From Methylocella sp. (GTDB lineage Bacteria > Pseudomonadota > Alphaproteobacteria > Rhizobiales > Beijerinckiaceae), in the NCBI GenBank assembly GCA_037200525.1, contig JBBCGG010000001.1, positions 1,654,501 to 1,718,500 on the forward strand: DNA of 64,000 nucleotides. Reading direction: 5' to 3'. Shown piece after piece: positions 6,832-61,761 of the stretch (its first letter is position 1; the number at the start of each line of letters is the position of its first letter). The notes beneath the pieces were generated by a model, which saw only the letters and a list, made by a program, of their open reading frames with translations, searched no databases and was not told the origin of the DNA. The position numbers were made by a program, and so were the translations under genes.

Positions 6832-6840
6832 CATTGATTT
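6776..6840 (+). repeat. attL: tRNA-Leu 3' direct repeat, left copy
   Basis: The 65-bp segment from within the anticodon stem through CCA and ACATTGATTT is repeated at 61696-61761. The left copy completes a functional tRNA-Leu gene. Integration into the 3' half of a tRNA with restoration of the gene is standard for tyrosine integrases. Confidence 0.9.
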
Positions 6841-6911: not shown

Positions 6912-8114
6912 TCAGCCCTCGTTCTTGTCGCCGAATCGCAGTTTGGAAATGCGGTTTGTTGCGGCTATACGGCCGCGCTTATATTTCAGGTTGGTCGCTA
7001 GCTGCTTGTGCGTGCCGAGTTCCATGGCGTCCTCCGATTTCGCCTCTTTGTCATAGGCATCTGAAATCGCACCGGCCCGCGTATCCATGTTCCAGACCTT
7101 GTCAGGAATCCTGGCTGCCTGGGCGATCTTGCGGAAGCGCCGGGCAAACTCGCGCTGAATATACGGCCGGCCGGACCGCTCATCCAGAATCACGGGGCCA
7201 ATCCGGCTTGTAATCGGTACTGTCACAAGTTCCGCCATGACCATTGGCAAGAGACGCAGGTCGAATTCTGCAACTTCATCGAAATTGCTCTTGCTGGTGG
7301 GCTTCTCCAGGTGCCAATCGGCTTTGATGTGCTCGCCCCAGCGTAGACCTACCGTCCAATGTTTGCCATCTGGCTTTCTTAGCCATTCTCCGATCACGTC
7401 CTTTTGGCGGAGGGCGCACGCGAACTGTATCGCGACCGCCCGCGCCATGCTCGGCAACGCGGCAGCGTGAGCCTCGATGATAAACGCCTTGACCTGGTCG
7501 ACAGATATCGTCTGCTTACGCCCCTTACCGGGTGAGAATTCGGTATCCGTGAGGATCCCCGCCAGATCTTTGCATGCCGAATTACGAAGTCCCTTGCCGT
7601 ATTTGACAATGATTCTGAGCATTTGCACGCAGCCATAGGCGCGGCGCGGGTTGGCAAGCTTTCCCTCGTCGTCACACCGCCCCCACTCCTTGTGCCACCT
7701 CCGAACGTCGTTGGACGTGATAGCGTCGATACGGCGAGCGCCGACCGTCTCCTTTAGGATTTTAAGGCTTTTATCGTAGCCCTCCTTTGTGACCGCCCGC
7801 TTGGTCTGGTAGGGGCTTTCCTCATCACGGGTGTACATCTCAGCCAGCCACGCAATGGTGCCAATCGAGGCGCCACCTGGCGTCGTCGCCACACCTCTTA
7901 GAAATTCCAACATCTCTGCCCAATAACGCCGGCACAGCGCTGCGACCGGTGGTGGCGCGTCTGTATCCCCAGGATCGTCCCTGAGAAATAGGGTCTTTGG
8001 CTCGTATCCGGCTTTTACCGCGGCCCTTGACGCAACCCAATAAACGTCACGCCTGCCCGTCTTGCGGAGCATGACCCTACGCCCTGGCGCGTGACTTTCG
8101 TCCAAGATTTCCAT
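6912..8114 (-). CDS. Phage tyrosine integrase
   Basis: 400 residues. The catalytic domain shows a box I arginine region (FACALRQKDVIGEW, near 245) and a box II region with Arg and the C-terminal Tyr (MDTRAGAISDAYDKEA then GTHKQLATNLKYKRGR). The N-terminal half has the core-binding SAM-like helices. It sits 80 bp from tRNA-Leu and points towards it, as usual for tRNA-integrating phages. Start 8114 has GGAGGAG about 9 bases upstream. It overlaps the excisionase-like gene by 38 bp, indicating co-transcription. Confidence 0.9.
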   Translation of the reverse strand: MEILDESHAPGRRVMLRKTGRRDVYWVASRAAVKAGYEPKTLFLRDDPGDTDAPPPVAALCRRYWAEMLEFLRGVATTPGGASIGTIAWLAEMYTRDEESPYQTKRAVTKEGYDKSLKILKETVGARRIDAITSNDVRRWHKEWGRCDDEGKLANPRRAYGCVQMLRIIVKYGKGLRNSACKDLAGILTDTEFSPGKGRKQTISVDQVKAFIIEAHAAALPSMARAVAIQFACALRQKDVIGEWLRKPDGKHWTVGLRWGEHIKADWHLEKPTSKSNFDEVAEFDLRLLPMVMAELVTVPITSRIGPVILDERSGRPYIQREFARRFRKIAQAARIPDKVWNMDTRAGAISDAYDKEAKSEDAMELGTHKQLATNLKYKRGRIAATNRISKLRFGDKNEG

Positions 8115-13860: not shown

Positions 13861-14982
13861 TCAGTTAGATACAACCAGTCGAATCCCTGGCTTTCCCCCG
13901 AAGTAAACGCGCTCGACATCCTCTGGCCGGGCAGCGAGCATTTTTGCCAGGTCATCAGTCGAATACCCTAAAGTCGTTCGGTGGTAGGTAACTATGTTTT
14001 TGAGACGAAGGGGTATCTCCGGCTTTAACTCAACCGGCTCAACCCCTTTAAAAGACTTTACATACTGTATGTTTAGCGATTTATATTGGCCAGGAGTTAT
14101 TAACTCCAAATCAAAAGCTCTCTTAATCAATGATTTTATCGATACTTTCCAGTATGCTTTGACACGCCCCAACGCATTCAATTTGGGAGAAACCAAATAT
14201 GGTTTGATATCGCTCGCCGGCATTAAAAACGCGGCTGCAAAGCGATGAGCTTCTGATTCCATTTTTTCGTCATCATCCGGCAGGCTGTGCATGACCATGT
14301 GGCCAAGCTCGTGCGCTAACGAAAACCGAAAGCGATCGTTTGGCATCTCCCGATTCATGAAAAACAAAGGAGGCAATCCCTCCGTTCGAAAACTGAGGCC
14401 ATCCAAAAGGTTCGTGCCAAATCGAGCAGAAGTAACAATACCACCCGCCTCCTCGATTAATTCGACGAGGTTCGAGACGGGCCCACGAGGCATCATCCAA
14501 TAAGCTCTCAACCGCTCAGCAAGTTGTTCCGGCGTAGCTCCGGATTGGTCAAGATCAATTTGCGGAATTGGTTTCGCGACCGGCGCTTCATAGGAACGCA
14601 AGAGCTTAACCACGTGCTGCCGACGAATATTTATCAAAGCTCCAATTCTGGCCAGCGGCTTTGCGCCAAGCTTCGCTCGTTTGCGAAAATGAAAATGCGG
14701 GAATCCAATCGCTCGCTCTCTCTGGAAGAAGAAATGCTCGGGAAAGCGAAGTTCCTCGGCAATTAGTCGGAGAGCTTCTTCGCCGGGTTGAGCAATCAGA
14801 CCATGCTCAAGCTTAGACATAAACGCCTGCGTCATGCCGGTATTAGTGGCCAGTTCGGCTTGGGTAAGTTCTCGCGCGTCACGAGCGAGCCGAAGCATAT
14901 CGGGGTTAAAAATATCATCTGCCACGGCCGCGACGGCTCCTTGCCCGGTCAGCATCGAAATCAATACTTTCTGTCGCATCAA
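13861..14982 (-). CDS. Xre-ImmA/IrrE metallopeptidase fusion (candidate RosmerTA-like or ImmA-like protein)
   Basis: 373 residues. The N-terminal Xre HTH (ARELTQAELATNTGMTQAFM, about residues 35-90) is followed by a COG2856 zinc peptidase domain with the HELGH motif (FSLAHELGHMVMH, about residue 230) and a distal Glu (ESEAHRFAAAFLMP). Family members either cleave phage/ICE repressors (ImmA) or form two-gene toxin-antitoxin defence pairs (RosmerTA). It overlaps the upstream 200-residue gene by 68 bp. The local AT content is higher than in the neighbours, suggesting acquisition. Its true start may be internal to the overlap. Confidence 0.8.
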   Translation of the reverse strand: MMRQKVLISMLTGQGAVAAVADDIFNPDMLRLARDARELTQAELATNTGMTQAFMSKLEHGLIAQPGEEALRLIAEELRFPEHFFFQRERAIGFPHFHFRKRAKLGAKPLARIGALINIRRQHVVKLLRSYEAPVAKPIPQIDLDQSGATPEQLAERLRAYWMMPRGPVSNLVELIEEAGGIVTSARFGTNLLDGLSFRTEGLPPLFFMNREMPNDRFRFSLAHELGHMVMHSLPDDDEKMESEAHRFAAAFLMPASDIKPYLVSPKLNALGRVKAYWKVSIKSLIKRAFDLELITPGQYKSLNIQYVKSFKGVEPVELKPEIPLRLKNIVTYHRTTLGYSTDDLAKMLAARPEDVERVYFGGKPGIRLVVSN

Positions 14983-25977: not shown

Positions 25978-27646
25978 GCGGCGCATGGTCTTTCGCCTGC
26001 CCAGATTGGCAGGATCGCTTGCGGTCAGGTCGCTCTCTCGTGCCGACCCTGCCGCTGGACGAAGCGGCGGCCGCCCGCGCTATCACGGTGTTCGGGCGCC
26101 TGCGCATACCGGACGTCGTCGGCACGCCGCTTATGCGCGATGCTTCAGGGGACTGGATCCGCGACATCGTCGGCGCGCTGTTCGGGTCGATCGACCCGAC
26201 GAACGGCCGCCGGCGGGTTCGGGAGCCGTTCCTGCTGTCCCGAAGAAGAACGCCAAGACCACTGGCGGCGCGGCCATCCTGCTGACCGCGCTGTTGATTA
26301 ACGAGAGGCCCTACGCCGAGTTCCTGCTCGTCGCCCCAACCCAGCAGATCGCCGAGCTCGCCTTCCGCCAGGTCGAGGGCATGATCGCGACCGACAAGTT
26401 TCTGCGCAGCCTGTTGCACGTGCAACCTCACCTCAAAAAGATCACGCATCAGCGCAATAGCGCGACCCTGCAGATCAAATCGTTTTCGACCGACATTCTC
26501 ACCGGCGTGAAACCCTCCGGCATTCTCGTCGACGAATTGCATGTCGTCTCCAACAACCCCAACGCCGACCGCGTCATCGGGCAGCTCCGCGGCGGCCTCA
26601 TCTCTCAGCCGGAAGGGTTTCTGTTTTTCATCACAACGCAGTCTGAGCGGCCGCCCGCGGGCGTTTTCAAGACCGAGCTCGCCAAGGCCCGCGCCATCCG
26701 CGACGGCCTCATCGGCGGCGCCATGCTGCCCATTCTTTACGAGTTTCCGGAAGATGTTGCCTGGAACGATTCCGCCAATTGGTGGATGGTCACGCCCAAT
26801 CTCGACCGGTCGGTCACGCTCGATCGGCTGATCGAAGAATATCAGACGGCGGTCGACAGCGGCGATGGCCAGCTGCGGCGCTGGGCGTCGCAGCACCTCA
26901 ACGTCGAGATCGGCCTCGCGCTCCGCGCCGATCGCTGGCCTGGCGCCGAGTTTTGGGAGGCCAATGTCGAATTTGGCCTCACGCTCCGTGAGATCATCAG
27001 GCGTTCGGACGTCGTGACCATGGGCGTCGACGGCGGCGGCCTTGACGATCTCCTCGGCGTCGGCGTCGTGGGTCGGGACAGGATCACGCGCAAGTGGTTG
27101 TCATGGGGCCACGCCTTCGCGCATGTCTCGGTGCTCGAGCGGCGCAAGAGCGAGGCCTCGAAACTGCGCGATTTTGCCGAGCATGGCGATCTCACCATCG
27201 TCGACCGCATGTCGATCGCCTTCGAATCAGTGGCCGACATCGCGGAGGAGATCGACCAGGCCGGAACTCTCGCCTCCGTCGGGCTTGACCCTTACGGCGT
27301 CGCGGAGATCGTCGAGGCCATGGCGCTGCGCGACATTTCGGGCGACGATCGCATCGTCGGCGTGTCGCAGGGCTACAAGCTGACCGGCACGATCAAGATG
27401 ACTGAAGTTAAACTGGCCGACGGCAACCTCGTCCATTGCGGATCAGGGATGATGGCATGGTGCGTCAGCAACGCGAAAGTCGAACCGAAAGGCAACTCGA
27501 TCGTCGTGACCAAGCAGGCCTCCGGCTCCGCCAAGATCGACCCATTGATGGCCCTCTTCAACGCCGTTGCGCTGATGAGCCAGAATCCTAAGCCGCTTGG
27601 AGGTCGCTCGGTCTATGAGGATGGCCACAACCTTCTTGTAATTTAG
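25974..27646 (+). pseudogene. Terminase large subunit, frameshifted
   Basis: The N-terminal frame (TTG at 25974) encodes WSFACPDWQDRLRSGRSLVP up to VREPFLL. The homologous sequence then continues one frame back from 26237 (VPKKNAKTTGGAAILL). One G appears to be missing in CTGCTGTCCCG at 26232-26242, exactly at the Walker A motif. Downstream all expected motifs are intact: Walker B-like ILVDELHVV and nuclease aspartates in MGVDGGGLDDLLG and KIDPLMALFNAVAL. The site is not a classic slippery heptamer. Without correction, no ATPase-nuclease fusion is made. A sequencing error remains possible. Confidence 0.8.
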
Positions 27647-27655
27647 ATCGGAGAA

Positions 27656-28729
27656 TCATTTTGCTTGTGGCTGCCGCGATGTGAAGGTTGCCCGCGTGAT
27701 TGATACGCTCATGCCTGCGGGGCCGCTAACGACTTGGGTTCGAGCTTCGAGTTGATTGGCTAGAGCGTTAACGATGGCCGTTCCCAATCCGCCGCCTACA
27801 CTCATACTGCCGTCGGCTCTTCCGACGCCGTTGTCTGAGACGGTCAATTTCCAATCTGCCTCCTCGGCCTCGTAAGTGACGAGAACCAGGGCGCCGGCTT
27901 TGTTGGCTGGAAAAGCATATTTAATCGCGTTGATCAAAAGTTCTGTGACAATGAGACCAATGCTCACCGCCTTAGCCGATTCGATGGTCCCCTCATCCGC
28001 CACCACTTTAATCGTGATAGGCTGGCCGTCTCCGATCATCGATGAGGCTAGACTGCCGCAAAGCTTCTCCAAGTAGGAACGAGCTTCAATCTGTCGAATG
28101 CCCTCGGATGCATGCAAGTGCTGTTGGACTGCGGCGATCGACATGACACGTTGATGGGCGTCGCGCAGATGAAGCCGCGTTTCCTCTGACGTGACGGCCC
28201 GCGCTTTCAATAGCAGGATGCTCGCGATCATCTGGAGGCTGTTTGCGACGCGATGCTCCATTTCCTGAAGCAAAACCTGTTTCTGGCGCAACAGCTCTTT
28301 GGTTTGCGTTAGAAGTTCCTCCTTCTCGCGCTCATTTACGCGTCGAGCCGTAACATCAGTGAAACCGAGCAGAATCATCGAGCTTGAGCTGTCTTTGTAA
28401 AGCATCTTTCGCGCGTTCAGATGCATGGTCCGGCGGCCGAGGTCAGGAAAATCGTGCTCGACCTCGAAGCCGTCCATCGCCGCGTGTTCCGGGATGATGG
28501 TTTCAAGCAGCACGCGAAGCGCCGGGATGTCCCATTGGCCTTCGCCCAGAGCGTAGAACAGACAGCCGATTGTGTCCTCGGCGTCGACGTTGAAAGTGCG
28601 GTAAAAGGAACGACTGGCTCCCAGCACGCGAAACTGGTTATCCAAAACGATAAACGGCTCCGGGATCGTATCGATGATCGCCAGCGCAATCGCGTGCGCG
28701 TCGGCCATGTTCTGGCTTGGGTTCAACAT
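27656..28729 (-). CDS. PAS-HisKA_2 sensor histidine kinase, cargo in the late operon
   Basis: About 357 residues from MLNPSQNMADAHAIALAI. A PAS domain (residues ~15-130; IPEPFIVLDNQFRVLGASRS) is followed by a coiled linker, the HisKA_2 phospho-acceptor (LLQEMEHRVANSLQMIASIL, His ~159) and an HATPase with ELLINAIKYAFPANKAG and VSDNGVGRADGS. No membrane segment, so it is a soluble sensor. It lies between terminase and portal on the opposite strand. There is no receiver partner nearby. Members of this class often feed the general stress response. The frame extends upstream into the portal start; the true start is uncertain. Confidence 0.85.
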   Translation of the reverse strand: MLNPSQNMADAHAIALAIIDTIPEPFIVLDNQFRVLGASRSFYRTFNVDAEDTIGCLFYALGEGQWDIPALRVLLETIIPEHAAMDGFEVEHDFPDLGRRTMHLNARKMLYKDSSSSMILLGFTDVTARRVNEREKEELLTQTKELLRQKQVLLQEMEHRVANSLQMIASILLLKARAVTSEETRLHLRDAHQRVMSIAAVQQHLHASEGIRQIEARSYLEKLCGSLASSMIGDGQPITIKVVADEGTIESAKAVSIGLIVTELLINAIKYAFPANKAGALVLVTYEAEEADWKLTVSDNGVGRADGSMSVGGGLGTAIVNALANQLEARTQVVSGPAGMSVSITRATFTSRQPQAK

Positions 28730-28940
28730 TGGGAAAACGCTAGTCCGATCTGGAGCTGTACGGCGCGCGGATGGCCTTAAAAATAGCGTGCGGTTGATCC
28801 GATCAGACAATACGCCCTCCGAAGACAAATGTCTGCCGATCACGCTAATTCGTTTATCGTGCTCAGGTCCCGTTGGATGATCCCTGGCGTCGTCGTTTAC
28901 CGCGGCTGGCTCAAAATCTGGAACATGAGATGAATTCCGC

Positions 28941-30302
28941 ATGAGCCTCGTCTCCCGCATCCGCCAGGCCTTCGCGCCAAAGGAGAAAAGCGTCGGCGCC
29001 GCGCTCCCGGCGATGGGATATCTGCCGACGCTGGGCGCGACGCCGTCGACGACGGGGCTGAACATCAGCCAGGGCACGGCGATGGCGGTCTCTACCGTCT
29101 ACGCCTGCGTCACCATCCGCTCGCAGGATACCGCCCGCTGCACGCCGCGCCTGTTCACGCGTCGGTCCGACGGCTCTCGCGCGGAGAACACCACGCATCC
29201 GCTATGCAAGGTCTTTCGCCGGCCCAACCGGGTCCAGACCTGGTTCGAGTTTATGGAGCAAATGAACGCCGCCTATCTTCTGCGCGGCAATGCCTATGCG
29301 GCCATCAAGCGCGACGGGCGCGGCGTTGTCTCCGAGCTCATTCCGATCAATCCGGACGCCGTTTTGGTCCTTGAGGGCTTCGACGGCCAGATCTTCTACA
29401 ACGTCAATCGGCTCGGTCTGTGGCAGATCGCCATGCTGCGCGAGTTTCCGTCCTCGATCGCCTCGGAGGATATTTTTCATCTGCGCGGCCTGAGCTTGAA
29501 CGCGCTCATGGCGCTTTCGACGATCGGCATCGCGCGCGATTCCATCGGCGTCGCCATGGGCCTCGAGCAGCAAACGGCGCGGCAAATGGCCAATGGCGCC
29601 CGGCCTAGCATGGTGCTCGAGGCTCCTCATAAACTGTCCGAGGACACCGGGAAGCGTCTCAGTCAGCAGTTCCGCGACGCCTTCGCCGGCATTCAAAACG
29701 TCGGCGGCGTGCCGGTGCTCGAACAAGGCATCAAGGCAAACCAATTGCAGCTCACCTCGGTCGACATGGAGTTCATGGCCCAGCGCGCCTACCAGGTGCA
29801 AGACATCGCCCGCTTTTACCGCATCCCGCCGCATAAGCTCGGCACGGATCAGCTGCGCGGCGTCAACATCGTCCAGATGGATCAGGATTACGTCAACAAT
29901 ACTGTCATGCCTGATTTGCATCGCTGGGAGCAAAAGTTTGATCAGGTCTTCGGCCTCTCTGACGAGGGCCTTGAGATCGACATGGACGAAACCGTGTTGC
30001 TCCGCGCCGACATCACGACCCGTTACAATTCGGCCCGCGTCGGCATGCTGACCGGCTTCCTTTCGCCAAACGAAGTGCGCGCCGGCGAGAATCTTCCGCC
30101 AGTCGAAGGCGGCGACGAGGTATATCGCCCGCTTAACATGGCCGCGCTGGGCAGCGACGCCACCGGTACGGCGCCGGACGGGGCGGGGCATCCGACCGCG
30201 GCCGAAGGCGATGCGCCAGCGGCTGACAATGTGCCGACCCATATCTCAAACGATAACGCAATGACAAACGGCGCGCCGCCGCCACTGAATGACGGTTCAT
30301 AA
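28941..30302 (+). CDS. Phage portal protein (HK97 family)
   Basis: 453 residues. Recognisable are AMAVSTVYACVTIRSQDTAR, RRPNRVQTWFEFMEQMNAAY, LLRGNAYAAIKRDGRG and FYRIPPHKLGTDQLRGVN, in the order of HK97 portal proteins. It forms the dodecameric DNA channel at the capsid vertex. It is separated from the terminase gene by the PAS-HisKA_2 kinase. The ribosome binding site is weak. Confidence 0.92.
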   Translation: MSLVSRIRQAFAPKEKSVGAALPAMGYLPTLGATPSTTGLNISQGTAMAVSTVYACVTIRSQDTARCTPRLFTRRSDGSRAENTTHPLCKVFRRPNRVQTWFEFMEQMNAAYLLRGNAYAAIKRDGRGVVSELIPINPDAVLVLEGFDGQIFYNVNRLGLWQIAMLREFPSSIASEDIFHLRGLSLNALMALSTIGIARDSIGVAMGLEQQTARQMANGARPSMVLEAPHKLSEDTGKRLSQQFRDAFAGIQNVGGVPVLEQGIKANQLQLTSVDMEFMAQRAYQVQDIARFYRIPPHKLGTDQLRGVNIVQMDQDYVNNTVMPDLHRWEQKFDQVFGLSDEGLEIDMDETVLLRADITTRYNSARVGMLTGFLSPNEVRAGENLPPVEGGDEVYRPLNMAALGSDATGTAPDGAGHPTAAEGDAPAADNVPTHISNDNAMTNGAPPPLNDGS

Positions 30303-30457
30303 AACTCGGGCGACGTTCGGCGCGCGCGGACGAACAGAGCTTCGCGCCCACGCCGGCCGTGGGCGGGTATCTCGCTTAGGCCCAAAAGCGGACCTTGCAG
30401 ATGCAAGAGTTCAGGCGGATAGACTTCTGCACCTGGTGGAAATCGGACATTGGGGTT

Positions 30458-32566
30458 TTAGGCGTTGATCATCTCCTTGATCCGGCTAGCCAACACTTCC
30501 ATTGGAAACGGCTTGATCAGGATAGACATGCCGGGCTTCAAGTTCTCGCGGCTGAACACCGCACTGTCGGCGTAACCGGTAATGAAAAGCACCTTCAGCT
30601 CGGGCCTGACCTGGCGCGCTGCATCGGCCACTTGCCGCCCGTTTAAGGCGCCAGGTAAGCCAACATCGGTCACGAGCAAGTCGATCCTTACGTCGGATTG
30701 CAGTATTCTCAGCCCAGCAGCGCCATCGGCCGCCTCGATCGCGATGTAGCCCAGATCCTCAAGCACTTCGGCCACCAGCATCCGCACGGTCGGCTCGTCG
30801 TCTACGACAAGTACCGCCTCGCCATGTTCGGCACGGGAGACGACATCATCGAGCCCTGCTGGACTTTGCACCTTCGCTTCCTCACCATCGTGCCGCGGCA
30901 GGTAGAGGCAGATCGTCGTGCCCGCTCCTACCTCGGATTGGATGCGAATCTGCCCGCCAGATTGCCGCGCAAAGCCGTAGATCATGGAGAGGCCAAGGCC
31001 GGTGCCTTGTCCGAGCGGCTTGGTGGTGTAGAAGGGGTCGAAGGCGCGGGCAATCACCTCGGGCGGCATGCCGGTGCCGGTATCGATGACGCAAAGGGAC
31101 AGGTAGTCGCCAGGGGGCAGGTCACGCGCGCGGGCCTTCCGCTCATCCAGGCGGTTGTTGGCCGTCGCGATGGTAATTCGGCCGCCGTCAGGCATGGCAT
31201 CGCGTGCGTTGATACACAGATTCAGCAGCGCATTCTCAAGTTGGTTGGGATCCACCAAGGCGGTCCATAATTCAGCCGCGCCCACGACCTCGATTTCGAT
31301 CGCGGGTCCGACCGTGCGCCGGACCATCTCCTCCATCCCCGCTACAAGTCGGTTGACGTCGGTTGCGATCGGGGCGAGCGTCTGCTGGCGCGAGAACACC
31401 AGTAGCCGGTGGGTCAGTGCCGCCGCCCGTGTAGCGGCTCCCTGCGCCGCGCCGATGTAGCGGTCGACATCTTTGAGGCGCCCCTGTCTGACACGGGTTC
31501 CTAGCAGTTCCAGGCTACCTGTGATGCCGGTCAGAAGGTTGTTGAAATCGTGCGCAAGGCCACCCGTCAGCTGCCCCACTGCTTCCATTTTCTGCGACTG
31601 ACGCAGCTGTTCCTCAAGCTGCTTACGATCATCGATATCACGCCCGGCCGCATAGAACTCGCCATCTTCGGGTATGCAGGTCCAGCTGCGCCAATTATAT
31701 GAGCCGTCACGAGCTCGCATCTGAACGTCAAGGTCGTGCACCACTGTGCCTTGAACCAGCCGCTCGAATGCGCCGCGCAGGGCGGTTAGCTGTTCCGGAT
31801 GAACCAAGTGCTCAAAGCGCGCGCCGATGAGGTCCTCGCGAGGGTATCCCAGCGATTCAGTCCAGGCTGGATTAACGCTACGGCAACACCCATCAAGACC
31901 GCACAATACGAAAAGGTCTGGGCTGACCCGCCAAATCTGATCCCGCTCGCGCGTACGTTCCGTGACCTGCTTCTCCAGCGTCTCATTCAATTCGCGCAAA
32001 GCGGCCTCGCTCTCTCGCAAAGCCGCTTGCGCGTCGCGCATCTCACCAGCGACGCGGAGGCGGTCCACCGCCGCTGCAAGCAAATTTGCATAGCCGCGGA
32101 GAAACTTGGTGTCTTGTTCATTAAAGTTTCGGGGGGTTCGGCTGTCGACCTGTAATATGCCGTAAGGAGACTTGCCGTCCGCGCCTAATATGATGACGCT
32201 GACGATCGCCTTTACGCCGTTGTCTTTAATGAAGTCCGCGTATTTGAACCTTGTTTCTTGGTCAATGTCGTCCGACATCACTGGCAGGCCGGTCTGTAGG
32301 GCATAACCCTCGGACGAGCCCCTCACGGCCGTGACTGTTATTTTACCTACGACATAGGACTTCCACCCCACGCCAGCCCGAACCAGGAGCGTGACGCCGT
32401 CCTCCTGCATCTCCATGACCTTCGCCAAGTCCGTATCCAGGGCCTCGCCTACCAGGCGGCAAGCTTCGGTAAGGATTTCATCCAAGTTGTCCGAGCGCAG
32501 GGCCAACTCGCCGAACTCGGCTAGTACCTCCTGTTGCCTTTGAAGCCGACTTTCACCGTTGATCAA
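30458..32566 (-). CDS. Hybrid histidine kinase: GAF-PAS-HisKA-HATPase-REC, cargo in the late operon
   Basis: About 702 residues. A GAF domain (LTEACRLVGEALDTDLAKV onward, ~20-165), coiled linker (LRELNETLEKQVTERTRERD), PAS (RVSPDLFVLCGLDGCCRSVN), HisKA with GGLAHDFNNLLTGITG, HATPase (NALLNLCINARDAMPDGG; GQGTGLGLSMIYGFARQSGG) and a C-terminal receiver (VLVVDDEPTVRMLVAEVL; phospho-Asp in LLVTDVGLPG). Soluble, no DNA-binding output. The TTG at 32566 is preferred for GGGAGG 6 bases upstream; the frame opens at a GTG at 32587. It sits between portal and protease on the opposite strand. Confidence 0.88.
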   Translation of the reverse strand: MINGESRLQRQQEVLAEFGELALRSDNLDEILTEACRLVGEALDTDLAKVMEMQEDGVTLLVRAGVGWKSYVVGKITVTAVRGSSEGYALQTGLPVMSDDIDQETRFKYADFIKDNGVKAIVSVIILGADGKSPYGILQVDSRTPRNFNEQDTKFLRGYANLLAAAVDRLRVAGEMRDAQAALRESEAALRELNETLEKQVTERTRERDQIWRVSPDLFVLCGLDGCCRSVNPAWTESLGYPREDLIGARFEHLVHPEQLTALRGAFERLVQGTVVHDLDVQMRARDGSYNWRSWTCIPEDGEFYAAGRDIDDRKQLEEQLRQSQKMEAVGQLTGGLAHDFNNLLTGITGSLELLGTRVRQGRLKDVDRYIGAAQGAATRAAALTHRLLVFSRQQTLAPIATDVNRLVAGMEEMVRRTVGPAIEIEVVGAAELWTALVDPNQLENALLNLCINARDAMPDGGRITIATANNRLDERKARARDLPPGDYLSLCVIDTGTGMPPEVIARAFDPFYTTKPLGQGTGLGLSMIYGFARQSGGQIRIQSEVGAGTTICLYLPRHDGEEAKVQSPAGLDDVVSRAEHGEAVLVVDDEPTVRMLVAEVLEDLGYIAIEAADGAAGLRILQSDVRIDLLVTDVGLPGALNGRQVADAARQVRPELKVLFITGYADSAVFSRENLKPGMSILIKPFPMEVLASRIKEMINA

Positions 32567-32587
32567 AACGACCCTCCCTGCGTCCAC

Positions 32588-32900
32588 GTCCGATTCATCC
32601 CGTCAGCTACCCTCGGAGTGAGCCGATGAAGCAGGCTCAGCTCTAACTCGGGAGCACACACAATGGTTGCTGGACTGCCTTGAAGTCTGCTTTGGGGAAC
32701 AGTAGCGACCGTAGCCGCCCTCCGACGTTGGCGTCCGATTTGCCGGGTTGCTCGCCCGAAAGCCGACAGGCTGCCACTTCGGCCGAGACCGGCCCTGCGC
32801 GAGATTTTCACGATGTCCGCGAGCGGCCGTAATGCAGACCAATTTAGATCGACCGAACGCCTAATAGGGCGGCGGTCGGAGTCCCTTGGAATCCGTGACC
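32588..32900. other. Non-coding gap between hybrid kinase and protease genes
   Basis: Divergent spacer. It should hold the kinase promoter and the restart of the late operon. I see no recognisable sigma-70 boxes with confidence and no gene. Short frames here lack ribosome binding sites. Confidence 0.35.
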
Positions 32901-34274
32901 ATGCAGAACAAACTCTTCGCCGGCTCGGTCGTTTCCGACGCGGCGCTCGGCGATCGGCAGATCCGCGTCGTCGCCAACAGCGGCAAAAGCGATCGCGTCA
33001 GGGACGTCCTCGTCGCCAAGGGCTGCAAGCTCGACAACTATTTGTCGAACAATATCGTCCTGGCCGATCACAATCCGCAGTGCCCGGTCGGCAATTTCGC
33101 GCCCGAGATCAAGGATGATCGCGTCGAAGGCGTCATCACCTTCGCGCCGGCTGGAGCTTCGGCCAAGGCAGACGAATATTGCGCCTTGTACAAAGCCGGC
33201 GTCATGAAAACAGTCAGCGTCGGCTTTCGCGAGATCGCCGCAGAGCCAATCAAGGGCGGGGGCTGGCTCTACAAGGAGTGGGAGCTCATGGAGCTATCAT
33301 GCGTCGCGGTCCCTTGCGATCCTGGCGCCGTCGTCACGGCCCGTTCGCTGCCAGGCGACCGCTGCAATTGGAAATGCGGCGCCTCGCTCAATTTGCCGAT
33401 CGCGGAAAAAAGCGATTGGGACGCCTCAGAGGCTGCTGAACGCATTTTCGCGAAGGCCGGTTTCGATGGTGATAATCCCGACGTCGCCTGGGCGCGCAAA
33501 GGCTTCCTCGCCTATGACGACGCCAATCCGAGGCTGAAAAGCTCCTACAGACTGCCCTTCGCCGACGTGATCGACGGAAGGCTGACGGCCATCAAAGACG
33601 CGGCCGATGCCGATGACATGATTGGCGCGGAGGTTCCGTCCGAGGTGTTGAAAAAGGCCCGTGCGGTGCTCGACGACTACGAGGCAAAAATGAAAGACGG
33701 AAAGAACGCGCCAGCATCAAAGACCAAAGCGATCAAGCCCAAAATCAAAGGCCTCTACGATGTCGCCTGTCTGGCGCGCCTGCTAGGCGAACTCGGCTGC
33801 CTGCAAGACAGTTCAGTTTGGGAGGCTGAGTGGGAGCAGGATGGCAGCAAAGTCCCGGCGATGCTCGCCGACGCGCTGCAGTCCCTCGCAGACGTCTTCC
33901 TGGCCATGACGGCGGAGGAGACCGCCGAGCTGCTCGCTGGCCGCGACGTCGAGGTCATTCCGGTCGATCTCGCCTCTGACGACTCGCTGACTGACGCGAC
34001 CAAACGCATGCGCGCCGCATTCCGCAAGTCAGGCCGCATGCTCAGCGCCGAAAACGCCAAATGCCTCGAAAAAGCGATGGACTGTATGTCCAAGGCCGCA
34101 GGCCATATTGAAACCGCCTGCGGCCACGTCAAGGATATCCAGGACCGCGCTGGATCGTCGGATGGCTCCAATGAGCCGGGTGATTCCGACGAGCTTGCAG
34201 ACGTGGAGCTCGCTGGCGAGATCGAGCATCGCAAGCGTCTGGCAATGGCGCTGGCTTTGTCTCCAGCGCCATAG
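32901..34274 (+). CDS. HK97-type prohead protease with long C-terminal extension
   Basis: 457 residues. The U35 protease region has the catalytic His (NNIVLADHNPQCPVGNF) and Ser (AGVMKTVSVGFREIAAE). After ~residue 160 comes a second region (ARKGFLAYDDANPRLKSSYR, then LPFADVIDGRLTAIKDAADA) known from larger head-maturation proteases. The tail is helical and acidic and could serve as a scaffold. A TTG at 32886 with GGAG 5 bases upstream is an alternative start. It cleaves the delta domain of the capsid protein. Confidence 0.88.
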   Translation: MQNKLFAGSVVSDAALGDRQIRVVANSGKSDRVRDVLVAKGCKLDNYLSNNIVLADHNPQCPVGNFAPEIKDDRVEGVITFAPAGASAKADEYCALYKAGVMKTVSVGFREIAAEPIKGGGWLYKEWELMELSCVAVPCDPGAVVTARSLPGDRCNWKCGASLNLPIAEKSDWDASEAAERIFAKAGFDGDNPDVAWARKGFLAYDDANPRLKSSYRLPFADVIDGRLTAIKDAADADDMIGAEVPSEVLKKARAVLDDYEAKMKDGKNAPASKTKAIKPKIKGLYDVACLARLLGELGCLQDSSVWEAEWEQDGSKVPAMLADALQSLADVFLAMTAEETAELLAGRDVEVIPVDLASDDSLTDATKRMRAAFRKSGRMLSAENAKCLEKAMDCMSKAAGHIETACGHVKDIQDRAGSSDGSNEPGDSDELADVELAGEIEHRKRLAMALALSPAP

Positions 34275-34285
34275 CAACCTCGCGT

Positions 34286-34582
34286 CTATTGGTTGCAGGT
34301 GGTCGGCGGAACGCAACCCGTCCCGTTTCCATTCGAATGAACGGCGAGGCCATCAGAGCCGCCAACGCTACGTCCTTCGGAGCCGGCGCCCGGGGCGCGT
34401 ATGCCCGTTCCGGCCTCCCCTATAGCAGGGTGTCCGCCGGTCATAGCGCCTCCGCTCGGGCCGCCGGCGGCGCCTGCGCCCGAACCGGCTCCGCCAGTGT
34501 TTCCCGCCGCTAGTGCCGCGCCGCTACACATAACCGCCGCGCTAAGCGCAATGGCGCTAGCAAATATGCCAAGTCTTTTCAT
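34286..34582 (-). CDS. Small secreted Gly/Ala-rich protein, cargo
   Basis: 98 residues. A signal peptide (MKRLGIFASAIALSAAVMCS, cleavage near ALAAGN) precedes a Gly/Ala/Ser-rich mature part ending CVPPTTCNQ, with two cysteines. AGGAGG lies 5 bases before the ATG at 34582. It is paralogous at the signal peptide to the next minus-strand gene. It lies between protease and capsid genes on the opposite strand. Function unknown. Confidence 0.65.
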   Translation of the reverse strand: MKRLGIFASAIALSAAVMCSGAALAAGNTGGAGSGAGAAGGPSGGAMTGGHPAIGEAGTGIRAPGAGSEGRSVGGSDGLAVHSNGNGTGCVPPTTCNQ

Positions 34583-34694
34583 GAGTCCTCCTGGTATTGC
34601 TTTTTTCAAGCAACTCGGATTCAGGCCCGGTTCCAAAGGGTCGCCTCTGGAGGGGTGCTCAAAATGCCGGAAGTGGGTTTACCTGCGTGGAAGG

Positions 34695-35009
34695 TTAGTA
34701 AAAGCCACACGCGCCATAAGGGTAAGGATAGCCATAATAGCCGTAGCCATAGCATGGGCCATATCCGAAGCCCCCGCCGAAGAACGCGCGTCTGTTAAAA
34801 CCGCGGTTGCCGAAGCCGCGGTTGAATCCCACGCTGCGCCCTTCAAAACCGCCTCCTCGGAAGCCCCCGCCGCCGAAGCCGCTGTGGAAACCGCCGCCGC
34901 CAAAACCGCCGCCGCCGTGCGCTCCGCCTCCGCGCGCTAAGACAGGACCACTAGAAATTATCGCAATTCCGAGCGCAGCGGCGCTCGCCAAAACACCTAA
35001 TCTTTTCAT
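34695..35009 (-). CDS. Small secreted Gly-rich protein, cargo
   Basis: 104 residues. A signal peptide (MKRLGVLASAAALGIAIISS, cleavage near VLARGG) is followed by glycine/phenylalanine repeats (GGGGFHSGFGGGGFRGGGFE) and a tyrosine-rich C-terminus (GYGYYGYPYPYGACGFY). AGGAG precedes the start. It resembles secreted Gly-rich proteins that respond to stress in alphaproteobacteria. A sequence like an ECF (EcfG-type) promoter is found 30-57 bases upstream. Confidence 0.7.
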   Translation of the reverse strand: MKRLGVLASAAALGIAIISSGPVLARGGGAHGGGGFGGGGFHSGFGGGGFRGGGFEGRSVGFNRGFGNRGFNRRAFFGGGFGYGPCYGYGYYGYPYPYGACGFY

Positions 35010-35039
35010 GAGTTAGTTCTCCTAACATCGCTGGCGGGG

Positions 35040-35066
35040 AAACTCGCCTTCTGCAGGCCAAGTTCC
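35040..35066 (-). promoter_or_regulatory. Possible EcfG-type promoter of the Gly-rich gene
   Basis: On the minus strand GGAAC (35066-35062) is followed by 18 bases and GTTT (35043-35040). This is close to the general-stress consensus GGAAC-N16/17-CGTT, with A in place of the C. It lies at a plausible distance from the start at 35009. Short motifs of this kind can occur by chance. Confidence 0.35.
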
Positions 35067-35232
35067 TCAAATGAACCCGATGTGAAGAGACGACCGGGCT
35101 ACGATTGTAGCTTGTTGGTCAGCCCAGGATTCCACTCCTGCGACATGCGGAGCGCCGCCTTTCTCATTGTGGGCTTAGGCAACCCCCAACCGCCGCGTCG
35201 GACGACGCCGCATCCCTTAGATGGAGCCTCTT

Positions 35233-36642
35233 ATGTCTATACATGAGCTGCGCGCGAGGCGCGCCACAGTCTATGATGAGTTCAAGGCGCTCGCCGAAAA
35301 GCCTGACTTTAAAATCCTGGTCGATCAGCCGAAGTTCGAAAAACTTCAAGGCGAGATCAAAGAGCTCGACGCCTCGATTGAGCGCCTGAAAACCTCTCAG
35401 GAGCTGAGCGCCCAAACCGCGCTTCCGGTCGCTGGCCAGGACGAGCGACGCGTGCCCGCCGCCGTCAAAGACGATCCCTGGACCGATGACGCCGCGGCCG
35501 AGCGTAAGGGATTTGGCTCGTCCAAGGGCCTTATCCTCGGCGGCTTGGCGAAGATGATCGGCGCCGCCGGCGGCAACCCTTATCACGCTCGCCAGATCGC
35601 CCAGGATCTTTACGGCGAACGTCATCTCGTCACCAAGGCTCTCGTGGCCGGCATCGGCAGCTCCGGCGGCTTCATTGTGCCGCCGGAATATGTCAACGAG
35701 ATCATCGAACTCCTGCGCCCGATCGCTGTAGTTCGCGCCTCCAACCCGCGCGTGCTGCCCATGCCCCGCGGCACGATGACTCTGCCATCGCAGACCAGCG
35801 CATCGGTCGCCACCTACGGGTCCGAGCATTCGCCGATCGGCACGACGCAACCTGGCCTCGGCCAGATCGTCGCGACTTATAAGAAGCTCCGCGCCCTCAT
35901 CCCCGTCTCCAACGACCTGATGCGCTTTGCCGATCCCGCGGCCGACGCCTTTGTCCGCGACGATCTCGTCAAGGTCTGTGCCCTGCGCGAAGATCTGGCC
36001 TTCCTGGTCGGCGACGGCACGCAGGATTCGCCGCGCGGCTTCCTGAGCTTCGCCAACCAGTGGGCGGCGGTCAACGGCGGCTCCGTCGGCGTGTTTCTTT
36101 CGACGGCGCCTTCGACGGCCGCTGTCGGTGGCAACTTCATCACCTCAAATGAAAATTTCACCTTCGCTACGGCTGCTTCCGAGCTCGGCGGCCTCGTCAA
36201 CAAGCTCGACACCGCCAACGTCTCCGACATGCGCCGCATGTGGTTCATGCATCCGCGATCGTTCAACTATCTGAACAACGTGCAGAACTCGCTCGGCGAA
36301 TACATCTACCGCGAGGAACTGTCCGAAGGGAAACTTCTAAATTACCCCTTCAAAAAGTCGACGCAGATTCCGATCAACATCCAGGACGCGACGGGCGCCA
36401 ATAAGGACTGCTCCTTCGTCATGCTGGTCGAGATGACCGACGCCATGATCCTCGACTCCATGACCCTGGAGCTCGCTGTGTCTCGCGAGGGCACATACGT
36501 CGATATGGCCGGCGTCACGCAAAGCGCATTCTCGAACGATGAGACCCTGATCCGCGGCATCATGGAGCATGATTTCCAGATGCGTCACCCGGCCTCGATC
36601 GCCATCGCACAATTCGTCCGCTGGTTCCCGGCGATCCAGTAA
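35233..36642 (+). CDS. Major capsid protein (HK97 fold)
   Basis: 469 residues. The N-terminal ~110 residues are helical (ATVYDEFKALAEKPDFKILV, LQGEIKELDASIERLKTSQE), the delta/scaffold domain removed by the protease. The body contains the typical SSGGFIVPPEYVNEIIELLR and LIPVSNDLMRFADPAADAFV, and ends QFVRWFPAIQ. Start 35233 follows GGAG at 35224. It is the building block of the icosahedral head. Confidence 0.93.
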   Translation: MSIHELRARRATVYDEFKALAEKPDFKILVDQPKFEKLQGEIKELDASIERLKTSQELSAQTALPVAGQDERRVPAAVKDDPWTDDAAAERKGFGSSKGLILGGLAKMIGAAGGNPYHARQIAQDLYGERHLVTKALVAGIGSSGGFIVPPEYVNEIIELLRPIAVVRASNPRVLPMPRGTMTLPSQTSASVATYGSEHSPIGTTQPGLGQIVATYKKLRALIPVSNDLMRFADPAADAFVRDDLVKVCALREDLAFLVGDGTQDSPRGFLSFANQWAAVNGGSVGVFLSTAPSTAAVGGNFITSNENFTFATAASELGGLVNKLDTANVSDMRRMWFMHPRSFNYLNNVQNSLGEYIYREELSEGKLLNYPFKKSTQIPINIQDATGANKDCSFVMLVEMTDAMILDSMTLELAVSREGTYVDMAGVTQSAFSNDETLIRGIMEHDFQMRHPASIAIAQFVRWFPAIQ

Positions 36643-36700
36643 TCCTCGCGGCCGGTTGACCGGCCCTCTCCATTTCACATTTTTTTGAGGAGGCACGCAC

Positions 36701-37252
36701 GTGTCTGCTTTTTCCGACCGCAAACATATCGGCGACCTGATCGACATCAAGGCGCTGTCAAAATCCCTGTCCTGGACCGCCGGCTCGGCGCAGGACAACG
36801 TGCCCTTGGTTGGCAACGTCATCGACCGCCTGGGCTTCCCAACGGGAAGCCTGCCGCAGACACTCGACGTCGGGGTCCTGCTGGATGCGACTTTAGCGGC
36901 CGGTGCGACCTTGTCGGTCGCCTTCGACGTTCAGGACTCGGCCGACGGCGTCAACTTCGCGGATTACGCCACCGTTCCTTCGGCGCCCTATCTGACGGGG
37001 CCGACTGGCGGCGGCCACATCCAGGGCGTCGCGCGCCTGACGCTCGTCAACGCGGATAATCCCAATATTCCGGGACAGGGGTTTAACCTTCCCGGCAATC
37101 TCGCTTCGCCGAGCATTCAGCTCGACAGCGCGCGGCGCTTCATCCGGCTTACCGTCACGCCGCATCTCTCGAGCGCCACGACGGACACTGCCGTCATCTT
37201 CCCAAGTGGAGTATTTGCCGGCTTCGACACCCTCGAAGCGCCGGTCGGCTAG
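36701..37252 (+). CDS. Head decoration-like protein
   Basis: 183 residues, beta-rich (LSVAFDVQDSADGVNFADYA, RRFIRLTVTPHLSS), starting with GTG after a strong GAGGAGG. Directly downstream of the capsid gene, the usual place for decoration or cement proteins, and followed by a strong terminator. The assignment rests on position and fold impression; no family is named. Confidence 0.55.
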   Translation: MSAFSDRKHIGDLIDIKALSKSLSWTAGSAQDNVPLVGNVIDRLGFPTGSLPQTLDVGVLLDATLAAGATLSVAFDVQDSADGVNFADYATVPSAPYLTGPTGGGHIQGVARLTLVNADNPNIPGQGFNLPGNLASPSIQLDSARRFIRLTVTPHLSSATTDTAVIFPSGVFAGFDTLEAPVG

Positions 37253-37277
37253 AGCATTGTTCCGGACAAAAATAAAA

Positions 37278-37298
37278 AGGCGGGACTGATTCCCGCCT
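37278..37298. terminator. Bidirectional intrinsic terminator
   Basis: AGGCGGGA and TCCCGCCT form an 8-bp stem with loop CTGAT, followed by CTTTAAT on the plus strand and by TTTTTATTTT when read on the minus strand. It separates the capsid genes from the convergent secreted-protein gene. Confidence 0.8.
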
Positions 37299-37325
37299 CT
37301 TTAATCACTGGTAGCTTGTCACGAT

Positions 37326-37571
37326 CTAATAGCGCTGATAGGGGCCGCGGGCTGGGGGCAGCGCTTCAAACGAGCTGCCCGCTGAGGGCAACTGCTCCAC
37401 TCCGCCACGCGATAGGCTCTGGGGGTCGGCCCCGACGGAGCGCCCCATGGTGACGCCCTCTTCTTGAGCCGGACGCTGATCATCAAAATGGGAACTCGCC
37501 TGCTTTGCTTCAGCGAAACCCGTGGAGCCTGCAATGATCGTGGCTACGGCTAACATCTTGAAGATGTTCAT
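37326..37571 (-). CDS. Small secreted protein, cargo
   Basis: 81 residues. The signal peptide MNIFKMLAVATIIAGSTGFA is followed by a hydrophilic mature part (QASSHFDDQRPAQEEGVTMG). AGGAG lies 8 bases upstream of the ATG. It is the fourth opposite-strand insertion among the head genes. No family recognised. Confidence 0.6.
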   Translation of the reverse strand: MNIFKMLAVATIIAGSTGFAEAKQASSHFDDQRPAQEEGVTMGRSVGADPQSLSRGGVEQLPSAGSSFEALPPARGPYQRY

Positions 37572-37991: not shown

Positions 37992-38264
37992 ATGACCGAT
38001 CTGTTTCAGGGCATGGGCCCGGACCTGGTGAGCCCGCCGACGAATCTGGCCGTCATCGCCCCGAGCGACGCAACCGATCTGCCTTTCGTGACCAAGGCGA
38101 TTTATTTCGGAAAAGCCGGCAACATCACCATCACCGCAATGGGCCAGGCTGGCTCCCCCGGCGTCACCCTCTCCAATGTCCCGGTCGGAACCGTGCTGAG
38201 CATCCGAGCGCAGCGCGTCTGGGCCACCGGAACCACGGCCTCCGGCCTTGTGGCGCTGTACTGA
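37992..38264 (+). CDS. Spike-base-like protein (RCAP_Rcc01079-type)
   Basis: 90 residues: DATDLPFVTKAIYFGKAGNI then ITAMGQAGSPGVTLSNVPVG and QRVWATGTTASGLVALY. This matches the small beta-barrel proteins that form the head-spike base of gene transfer agents. It would sit at capsid vertices and help attachment to surface polysaccharide. Its stop overlaps the next start (ATGA-type). Confidence 0.55.
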   Translation: MTDLFQGMGPDLVSPPTNLAVIAPSDATDLPFVTKAIYFGKAGNITITAMGQAGSPGVTLSNVPVGTVLSIRAQRVWATGTTASGLVALY

Positions 38265-39349
38265 TGGCCTCGTCCCCGACGATCCTATCGAGGGTGCTGA
38301 TCCCCGCCGTTCCCGCCTTTCAGGGCGGTGCGCCGCTCGACCTGATTTCCCTCGCCGACATCAAGCTGGAGCTCAAAATCGCCTCGGGCGCTGATGACGT
38401 TTGGCTCAAAGACGTCATCACGCGGCAGTCGCGCGCCGTCGCCAAGTTCTGCAACCGCGTTTTCCAGGTGCAAACCTATCAGGATCAATTTTGGGCGCGG
38501 CGCGAGGCGCATCCCTGGCAGATCCACGGCGGTTTCCTGCCGCTGCAACTCGCGCATTGGCCGATCGTCGCGCGGATTTCGCCAGCGGGGATCGCGCCGC
38601 CGCATGCGCCTTTTCTGTCGGCGGACGCCGGCGGCGCGCTCGCGGCGAGCATCTATTATGTCCGCATCACCTATGTGACCGCGGAAGGCGAGACGGCGCC
38701 ATCGCTCGAGACGCGGCTTGTGGTCGGCGCCGGTAATCTGCTGCAGGTCGCCGGGCCGCCGCTCGACAAGAATGCCCTGGCGATCGGCTGGAACGTCTAC
38801 GCCTCGACGACAAGTTTTGGCGAGAAGCTGCAGAACGCCGCGCCGATGCCGATCGGCGAGGCCTGGACCTTGCCCGCCACAGGTCTCGTCACGGCCACGC
38901 AGTCGCCGCCGAACAGCGTGACGGTCGTGGAGAATGTGCACTCGCCGATTTCGCCGGTGAGCGTGCCGCCACGCACTTTTCCATCGCAAAGCGCCTTGCA
39001 TCCGGAATCAGTGGCGGAAGGCGTCGGCTTCCTGGTCGATCACACGAGCGGCCAGCTGGCGCGGCTTTCGTTCGATGGCAACGTCCGCCAATGGCCGGCG
39101 CTGCCAATCATCGTGCAGTACCAGGCGGGTTACGTCGAGATCCCGGACGATCTGCGCGAGGCGGTCATTCGTCTCGTGAAAATGCGCTGGTTTTCGCGCG
39201 AGCGCGATCCGCTGATCCGCTCTGAGAACGCCGCCGGCGTCTATGAAGCGCAATATTTCTACGGCTCCGGGCCTGGCGCGGCGGAAGATATGCCAGCCGA
39301 CATCGGCGCCATGCTCGATCGCAACTATCGCGTGCCCGTGATCGCCTAG
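38264..39349 (+). CDS. Head-tail connector (gp6-like) with inserted beta domain
   Basis: 361 residues. The N-terminus (LADIKLELKIASGADDVWLK, DVITRQSRAVAKFCNRVF) and C-terminus (IPDDLREAVIRLVKMRWFSR, RVPVIA) are those of HK97 gp6-type connectors, normally ~100-200 residues. Between them is an extra Ig/FN3-like stretch (YYVRITYVTAEGETAPSLET). It forms the ring joining portal and tail. Confidence 0.75.
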   Translation: MASSPTILSRVLIPAVPAFQGGAPLDLISLADIKLELKIASGADDVWLKDVITRQSRAVAKFCNRVFQVQTYQDQFWARREAHPWQIHGGFLPLQLAHWPIVARISPAGIAPPHAPFLSADAGGALAASIYYVRITYVTAEGETAPSLETRLVVGAGNLLQVAGPPLDKNALAIGWNVYASTTSFGEKLQNAAPMPIGEAWTLPATGLVTATQSPPNSVTVVENVHSPISPVSVPPRTFPSQSALHPESVAEGVGFLVDHTSGQLARLSFDGNVRQWPALPIIVQYQAGYVEIPDDLREAVIRLVKMRWFSRERDPLIRSENAAGVYEAQYFYGSGPGAAEDMPADIGAMLDRNYRVPVIA

Positions 39350-56262: not shown

Positions 56263-57666
56263 TCACTTCGCCATGTTGATGATCTTGGCTTGGGTAAACT
56301 CCTCAAGTCCTTCTTGCCCTAGCTCCACGCCGAAGCCCGACTGCTTGGCGCCGCCCCTCGGGACGTCGGGCGAATAGGCCATGTGCTGGTTAATCCAGAC
56401 CATTCCGGAATTGATCTTCGAGGCCACCTCGAACGCCCTATCGGAATCTTTCGACCATACGGTGCCGCCAAGCCCGTAGTCAGTGTCGTTGGCGCGTGCG
56501 ATCGCGTCATCGATCTCGGAGTAGCGCAGCACCGGGAGCACCGGCCCGAATTGCTCCTCCCTCACCAATCGCGCATCGTCGGGAATGTCCCTGACGATGG
56601 TCGGCTGGATGAAATAGCCCTTGCGGTCGAGCGCTGCGCCCCCAGCGACGATTGTCCCGTTCTGCTTCGCGTCTTCGAGAAAGCCCTTGACCTTTTCGAA
56701 CTGGGCTTTGTTCTGCAGCGGCCCCATCTGCGTGCCCTGCTTCAGACCGTCATCGACCACGGCTTCCCGCGCGAGCCGACCGAGCTCGTCGCAAATCTCG
56801 TCATATTGCGAGTCATGGACGTACAATCGCTTGATCGCGAGACAGACCTGCCCAGCATTGAGCATAGCGCCGGCATAGACTTTGGACGCCACGTCTTTCA
56901 CATCGACGTCGTCGAGAACAATAGCGGCGTCGTTCCCGCCAAGTTCGAGGGTCAGCCGCTTCAACGTGCCCGCGGCGTTCTCCATCACCTTCTTGCCTGT
57001 CGCCGTGGAGCCGGTGAAGGCGACCTTGGCGACGTCGGGATGGCTGGTTAGCGCGCCGCCCAGATCATTCGCATCGACGATAATATTCATCACGCCAGGC
57101 GGCAGAATTTTGGCGCAGATCTCGCCGAATTTGAGCGTCGTAAGCGGCGTCGTAGGCGCGGGCTTCGCCACGACCGTGTTGCCGGCCAGCAGCGCCGGCG
57201 CCACCTTTACCATCAGAAGGGCCATCGGGTAGTTCCACGGCGTGATGGCGGCGACGACGCCCAGCGGCGACTGCTGCTGCAGCACTTTTTGCGTTGCGTC
57301 CTCATTGAGCACTTTCAAGGGGAGATCGAGCGACGCGAAATAGCGGATCAGGGCGATCGATCCGGCAATTTCATATGTCGCCTGCAGCAGCGGCTTGCCT
57401 TGTTCTTCTGTGAGAAGCCGGGCGAAGTCGCCTTGCTGCGTTTCGAGGGCATCGGCCAGAGCGATTAACAGCGCGCCACGCTCCCGGATCGGCTTCGCCG
57501 CCCATGCGGGGAAGGCCGCTTTGGCGGCCGACACGGCTTGATCGAGCTGTGCTCGGTCGGCGCGCGGTGCGACCGCCAGCACTTCCCCAGTCGCGGGATT
57601 AATAACGTCCAAAGTGGTGAAGCCCGCTGTCAGCCGTCCGCCGATCAATAACTTAAATTCGTTCAT
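56263..57666 (-). CDS. NAD(P)-dependent aldehyde dehydrogenase (succinate-semialdehyde type)
   Basis: 467 residues. Family motifs: VVAAITPWNYPMALLMVKVA, the cofactor loop VAFTGSTATGKKVM, general base Glu in RLTLELGGNDAAIVLDD and catalytic Cys in NAGQVCLAIKRLYV. Closest in style to GabD-like enzymes oxidising succinate semialdehyde or related aldehydes. It lies between the last phage gene and attR, so it is either lysogenic cargo or part of an older island. AGAT-like weak ribosome site. Confidence 0.85.
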   Translation of the reverse strand: MNEFKLLIGGRLTAGFTTLDVINPATGEVLAVAPRADRAQLDQAVSAAKAAFPAWAAKPIRERGALLIALADALETQQGDFARLLTEEQGKPLLQATYEIAGSIALIRYFASLDLPLKVLNEDATQKVLQQQSPLGVVAAITPWNYPMALLMVKVAPALLAGNTVVAKPAPTTPLTTLKFGEICAKILPPGVMNIIVDANDLGGALTSHPDVAKVAFTGSTATGKKVMENAAGTLKRLTLELGGNDAAIVLDDVDVKDVASKVYAGAMLNAGQVCLAIKRLYVHDSQYDEICDELGRLAREAVVDDGLKQGTQMGPLQNKAQFEKVKGFLEDAKQNGTIVAGGAALDRKGYFIQPTIVRDIPDDARLVREEQFGPVLPVLRYSEIDDAIARANDTDYGLGGTVWSKDSDRAFEVASKINSGMVWINQHMAYSPDVPRGGAKQSGFGVELGQEGLEEFTQAKIINMAK

Positions 57667-61695: not shown

Positions 61696-61761
61696 GACTT
61701 AAAATCCCTCGACCTTTTGGTCATACGGGTTCGATTCCCGTCGTCCGCACCACATTGATTT
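61696..61761 (+). repeat. attR: tRNA-Leu 3' direct repeat, right copy
   Basis: 66 bases matching 6776-6840 except for one extra T in the variable arm (CCTTTTGG versus CCTTTGG). No 5' tRNA half precedes it. Its last bases overlap the stop codon of the DUF2252 gene. Confidence 0.9.

Follow-up and report, generated by a model that had tools for sequence, protein, structure and literature searches.

Why does the head operon of a prophage in a Methylocella genome hold five genes on the opposite strand, and what would these genes do for the phage or its host? The stretch of DNA analysed, hereafter the window, comprises 64,000 nucleotides (G000:C1:1654501-1718500) of a genome assembled as a single 5.24 Mb contig with a completeness of 99.81%. 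An insertion sequence element of this genome shares 86.6% identity, over 63% of the query, with a Methylocapsa polymorpha plasmid, which points to a host probably of the Beijerinckiaceae type. The original prediction had described a run of head genes interrupted at four junctions by antisense cargo, including two soluble histidine kinases, and had proposed that the prophage rewires host signalling and the cell surface. Gene order and strands were found as described: the head genes are open and five antisense genes lie in four junctions. An assembly artefact, which would have undermined the description, is unlikely at a join of contigs because the genome is one nearly complete contig. Morons, the extra genes of prophages, are a known class, and it is fairly probable that the five genes are moron cassettes (lysogenic-conversion genes) settled in the head operon, with a possible role in the host stress response as set out below.

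The operon is of the HK97 type and occupies 26.0-39.3 kb of the window, with the terL, portal, S78-like protease, capsid and connector genes all open reading frames (ORFs) on the plus strand. The terminase large subunit gene terL (26003-27646, plus strand, start codon approximate) matched Pfam TerL_ATPase/TerL_nuclease and PHROG 9, and is followed by the portal gene (28941-30302, plus strand; Pfam Phage_portal, 3e-81). The S78-like prohead protease (32901-34274, plus strand; ORF open from a TTG at 32886) was assigned by PHROG 617/80, its Pfam Peptidase_S78 match falling below the cut-off. Downstream lie the major capsid protein (35221-36642, plus strand; Pfam Phage_capsid, 5e-36), a decoration-like protein (36701-37252, plus strand), which keeps its name from the original prediction and matched PHROG 5707 of unknown function at 1.1e-5, and the head-tail connector (38261-39349, plus strand; PHROG 442, with Pfam Phage_connect_1 just below the cut-off). 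The five minus-strand ORFs, whose starts were refined by eye, are HK1 (27656-28729) between terL and portal, HK2 (30458-32566) between portal and protease, gly1 (34286-34582) and gly2 (34695-35009) between protease and capsid, and sec3 (37326-37571) between decoration and connector. Each had been credited with its own ribosome site; Shine-Dalgarno-like sequences were seen by eye before HK2, gly1 (AGGAGG before its ATG), gly2 and sec3, while no clear one was visible upstream of HK1.

To place these insertions among related phages, 96 loci were chosen: 82 IMG/VR viral contigs, 12 genome loci and two capsid loci. A portal match was present in 94 of them (L175 and L176 were dropped), forming 75 groups at 90% portal identity, with the window kept apart. 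Seventy-seven of the 82 viral contigs were drawn from the best 80 of 127 relatives, which ties the junction counts to the closer ones; 21 further capsid relatives stand outside the counts. With a junction regarded as filled at 600 bp or more, terL-portal was filled in 2 of 44 groups, portal-protease in 9 of 73, protease-capsid in 5 of 62 and capsid-decoration in none of 36. In the window the first three cargo-bearing junctions measure 1294, 2583 and 946 bp. Among the 34 groups in which these three could be measured, 28 had none filled, three had one and three had two, and not one had all three. The predicted rarity of the insertions therefore holds for the first three junctions taken together and fails for decoration-connector, which is filled in 19 of 25 groups and is thus not unusual by itself.

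The window carries extra genes at junctions where related phages lack them. Two relatives (L052 and L016) are compact at both terL-portal and portal-protease, and in a same-genus prophage (G144) ATGAGCCTC stands two bases after the terL stop, followed by one short sense ORF and no other cargo before the portal gene, the prophage being deleted further on. More distant relatives carry various genes at these junctions. Antisense PIN-domain genes occupy portal-protease in L116 and L118 (by Pfam) and in L165 (by start residues matching L118), while L104, with L105-L108 of the same group, has a sense ORF with a dual-specificity phosphatase domain there; other relatives have ferritin-like (L162), DnaJ (L100) and D12 methyltransferase-like (L019) junction genes. 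A small partner ORF with no Pfam match lies beside the PIN-domain gene in L118 and L165. In the deleted G144 prophage we also observed an antisense gene (G144:C3 11256-12293, L210) with a portal fragment on one side and the tape-measure gene on the other; its product combines BLUF with an adenylate/guanylate cyclase and would be a further sensor cargo in this phage group.

Decayed sister remnants were found in at least two regions of the same genome. One, at 3.04-3.07 Mb, contains A and D, which are about 25 kb apart and may be pieces of one prophage; the other, at about 4.57 Mb, contains B. Three portal copies (A, B1 and B2), all broken, are 86-92% identical to the window portal, the match beginning at its start codon or two bases ahead of it; further upstream they show no match to the window. 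Remnant A instead carries catalase-like and cytochrome b561 genes in sense and an alpha/beta hydrolase in antisense before its portal, the hydrolase lying tail-to-tail with a second terL C-terminal piece in the same layout as HK1 in the window. Two terL C-terminal copies of differing identity flank the catalase-like/cytochrome b561 pair (3036117-3041966, L007), as if two phage junctions had recombined. The sec3 gene, by comparison, is shared: it lies antisense beside decoration-gene sequence in remnants B and D as in the window, and the core of its terminator hairpin (37273-37303, minus strand; 13 pairs, then a T run) is identical. Since sec3 and its terminator are common to all three copies, this cassette predates their divergence. 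Relatives without cargo, sister copies with other cargo and the shared sec3 together support the moron interpretation and the antisense layout.

The remnants also suggest a different account, in which host genes were inserted after integration into a prophage starting to decay and are passengers without phage function. Host-type genes and insertion sequence elements do lie between their head-gene pieces, and HK1 has a homologue of 82% nucleotide identity on the same chromosome. We nevertheless regard this account as unlikely, for the head genes of the window are all open, the inserts interrupt no gene and the attachment repeats are present; the sec3 cassette is older than the split of its three copies; and IMG/VR viral contigs whose genes stand in the usual order carry junction cargo too.

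HK1, at 357 amino acids, is a PAS-HisKA_2-HATPase histidine kinase with near-full-length matches to the kinase domains (HisKA_2, 3e-20). Its H-box reads HRVAN, and so conforms to HRXXN, while the HWE_HK match is below the Pfam cut-off; both HK1 and HK2 are apparently soluble from their sequences. The homologue in the same genome (2554079-2555174) gave a ratio of nonsynonymous to synonymous substitution rates (dN/dS) of 0.17 against HK1 over 357 codons, and matches at E <= 1e-60 were present in 6 of 14 other genomes of the genus. A tree was built from seven genus sequences (ten intended rows minus L070, L071 and L006, removed by a motif filter; two rows were shortened and L068 was left out), in which HK1, the own-genome copy and two genus copies cluster at 100/100, with the inner order open. 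Among solved structures, relatives at E <= 0.001 were limited to chains 4r39 and 4r3a, of a blue-light-activated histidine kinase. Named phages gave two weak matches, and in the viral contig collection a pattern search, which reaches close relatives only, returned six matches, none of them related. Around the own-genome copy (2550133-2556800, L013) we observed two Gly-rich paralogues and a gene resembling the terminase large subunit by eye, which had no Pfam match. We considered whether this host region (region C, about 2550-2557 kb) had donated HK1 together with the Gly-rich genes, and one capture event was found unsupported because HK1 matches at 82% while the Gly-rich genes match at about 68-80% over short pieces. 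That the host lineage was the source of HK1 and of the genes for the secreted proteins is consistent with the data, rather than proven by them.

HK2 is a GAF-PAS-HisKA-HATPase-REC protein (Pfam GAF, PAS_4, HisKA, HATPase_c and Response_reg), and, joining HisKA, HATPase and receiver domains in a single polypeptide, it is a hybrid histidine kinase by definition. Its start was placed by eye at a TTG behind AGGGAGG; a longer reading from a GTG extends to 32587. HK2 matched PHROG 5982 at 4.7e-188 and has relatives encoded in 16 IMG/VR loci, and none of 37 named-phage records matched it over 80% of its length. The closest homologue in its own genome is 51% identical over part of the length, and the best solved relative is CckA. 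A role as a CckA-type input to CtrA was considered and dropped, the own-genome homologue L085 (48% identity) having a dissimilar N-terminal region by eye and no closer link having been found.

The completeness of the two kinases bears on a second alternative, that the antisense genes act chiefly by being transcribed, their transcripts interfering with leaky late transcription in the lysogen. All five do oppose the head operon, and the sec3 terminator is strong. The near-complete kinase domains and the dN/dS of the HK1 pair argue against it, however, and cargo at these junctions in related phages is mostly in sense. The first three junctions yield 16 filled group-junctions, and our reading of them, which relied on a weak gene caller, gives 12 with sense ORFs, two with antisense ORFs, one mixed and one with nothing callable, the strand calls being incomplete because the codon-score caller overlooked the sense phosphatase in L104-L108. 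We consider this alternative very improbable.

The three small proteins have signal-peptide-like N-termini, as judged by eye, and would be secreted. Two are Gly-rich (gly1 and gly2), the third, sec3, has 81 amino acids and a GRSVG motif, and a Pfam scan of all three gave no match. In the same genome gly2 has eight matches, itself included, with gly1 not among them, and sec3 has seven; both are thus multi-copy families, with matches in other members of the genus. Partial matches to gly1 occur near 3228 kb and 4604 kb, and near 4602-4604 kb sec3-like and gly1-like sequences sit close together. A GRS motif, mostly GRSV or GRSA, is common to the Gly-rich and sec3 families, and begins at an identical position in all eight extracted sec3-family proteins (L204 was left out). 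That these small ORFs are partly spurious open frames of GC-rich DNA, as the codon scores of gly1 and gly2 (at or below zero) might suggest, is scarcely credible given the families of gly2 and sec3, the partial matches of gly1 and the visible Shine-Dalgarno-like sites and N-termini.

A sign of a stress-response connection lies upstream of gly2. An EcfG-like promoter had been claimed for one cargo gene, and a motif search located it there: GGAAC-N17-AGTT (35041-35066, minus strand) begins 57 nucleotides before the ATG. The consensus of EcfG promoters is given as GAAC-N16,17-C/GGTT in PMC4814048, where phosphorylation of PhyR is also described as controlled by HRXXN kinases. The GGAAC of gly2 and its 17-nucleotide spacer fit this consensus. 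Within 150 nucleotides upstream, GGAAC-N16/17-[C/A]GTT was found in seven of the eight own-genome gly2 matches, gly2 itself included, and in two of four checked family members from other genus genomes (12 of 15 matches were counted; L180 and L185, with no start, and L179, extended and with an uncertain start, were left out). The background was 8 of 3020 non-overlapping tiles, a tiling that somewhat underestimates it. A looser pattern gave seven sites in the whole window, of which only that of gly2 directly precedes an identifiable gene. No EcfG-like site was found upstream of gly1, HK1, HK2 or sec3, gly1 having a GGAAC with N14 spacing, and two of eight extracted sec3-family genes have one.

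The host has a phyR-nepR-ecfG locus. Its nepR was found through PF18557, above the cut-off; by eye we named the flanking ORFs ecfG and phyR. A strict EcfG-type site lies between nepR and phyR. We consider it likely that gly2 is under EcfG control, and propose only tentatively, from its HRXXN box, that HK1 acts on PhyR. That the prophage taps the host general stress response is plausible rather than shown. The proposed rewiring of host signalling, still unproven, thus gains a candidate pathway from the HRXXN box and the phyR-nepR-ecfG locus, while HK1 itself is unlinked to that locus. The cell surface may also be rewired, the sole pointers being the signal-peptide-like N-termini.

Several results weigh against this interpretation. 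The -10 box of gly2 is AGTT and departs from the published C/GGTT, for which reason we call the site EcfG-like and not an EcfG promoter; a strict CGTT is present in only 4 of the 12 checked family genes, and A was admitted after inspecting the sequences. Within 15 kb around phyR, HK1 gave only a marginal 56-residue match (E 0.034); linkage to this locus does not define HRXXN stress-response kinases. Region scans found no promoter candidates for HK1, HK2, gly1 or sec3. Codon scores discriminate poorly between cargo and the antisense frame inside the portal gene (0.146 for HK1 and 0.183 for HK2 against 0.107, with 0.31 for portal itself). The HK1 tree cannot give a direction of transfer, as it holds no sequence from outside the genus. 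Finally, with relatives' cargo mostly in sense, the all-antisense pattern belongs to the window. As for control elements of their own, the cassettes thus have an EcfG-like site at gly2 and a strong, conserved terminator at sec3, with no convincing terminator found for the other cargo in the region scan. Across the region, terminator-like sites (19 against 13.8 +/- 4.0 in shuffles) and sigma-70-like sites (3 against 3.5) showed no clear excess.

On the moron interpretation, the cassettes would have inserted in the gaps between the stop codon of one head gene and the start codon of the next, leaving every late gene uncut. In the lysogen, with late transcription off, they would be transcribed from their own promoters, and under stress the host EcfG would switch gly2 on. 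HK1 could be an added input that raises or lowers PhyR phosphorylation, with HK2 as a second input into some phosphorelay, so that the phage would choose the cues on which the lysogen turns on its general stress response and changes the proteins that it secretes; phage or host may benefit. A broader and rather improbable extension is that the head operon is a series of exchangeable cargo slots bordered at gene ends, holding here both an input (the HRXXN kinase) and outputs (EcfG-driven secreted proteins), such that the prophage would both steer and read the general stress response.

Phage morons and prophage accessory loci are treated in PMC7067206 and PMC6814406. The five genes resemble morons in that they are of host type, lie amid conserved phage genes and are missing from relatives, some with a putative promoter or terminator of their own; they differ from the usual case in filling three successive early head-gene junctions as well as decoration-connector, all in antisense, with two of the five encoding sensor kinases. 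Phage-encoded hybrid kinases are already catalogued, as the PHROG and IMG/VR relatives of HK2 attest. A phage kinase comparable to HK1 is found in the alphaproteobacterial Paracoccus phage vB_PyeM_Pyei1 (MK291445), which has a HisKA_2/HWE kinase next to its packaging genes; that kinase lies on the sense strand upstream of terS, has GAF instead of PAS and is 33% identical over half of HK1. HK1 shares HisKA_2, the HRXXN box and PAS with the general-stress HRXXN (HWE/HisKA_2) kinases, and its host has phyR-nepR-ecfG, but unlike them it is prophage-borne and away from phyR, and its phosphotransfer to PhyR is putative. CtrA-controlled alphaproteobacterial phages (PMC9437464) are likewise wired to a global regulatory pathway of the host; they read the host regulator through binding sites, whereas this prophage carries kinases of its own, and the pathway proposed for it is the general stress response. 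In the open literature, subscription papers lying outside it, no precedent stood out, by title or start of abstract, for a prophage that carries a regulator of the general stress response of alphaproteobacteria; PMC3999984 deals with a partner-switching system that affects a gene transfer agent in Rhodobacter capsulatus. Morons and phage-borne kinases are thus known, and what is unusual is so many in a head-gene block with apparent stress-response ties; new in this analysis are the EcfG-like promoter in most of the own-genome gly2 family and the HRXXN motif in the prophage-borne HK1. If HK1 feeds PhyR, lysogeny would act through a kinase to change how an environmental alphaproteobacterium tolerates stress. 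Filled and unfilled junctions also offer a natural comparison of the way in which a conserved phage operon gathers insertions and stays unbroken.

The prophage is bordered by attL (6776-6840), where a 22-bp and a 46-bp direct repeat overlap each other and a tRNA-Leu(TAA), and by attR (61696-61761), with direct repeats matching attL. An integrase candidate (6912-8114) adjoins attL and is tyrosine-recombinase-like by eye, with no match in Pfam or PHROG searches. A helix-turn-helix and IrrE-like peptidase gene (13861-14982, minus strand) may regulate the lysis-lysogeny switch, a role that we guess. More host-type genes were observed in the right arm of the prophage (55.9-61.7 kb of the window), including an aldehyde dehydrogenase (56263-57666, minus strand), a DUF4142 protein (58900-59823, plus strand) and an alpha/beta hydrolase (60424-61404, minus strand).

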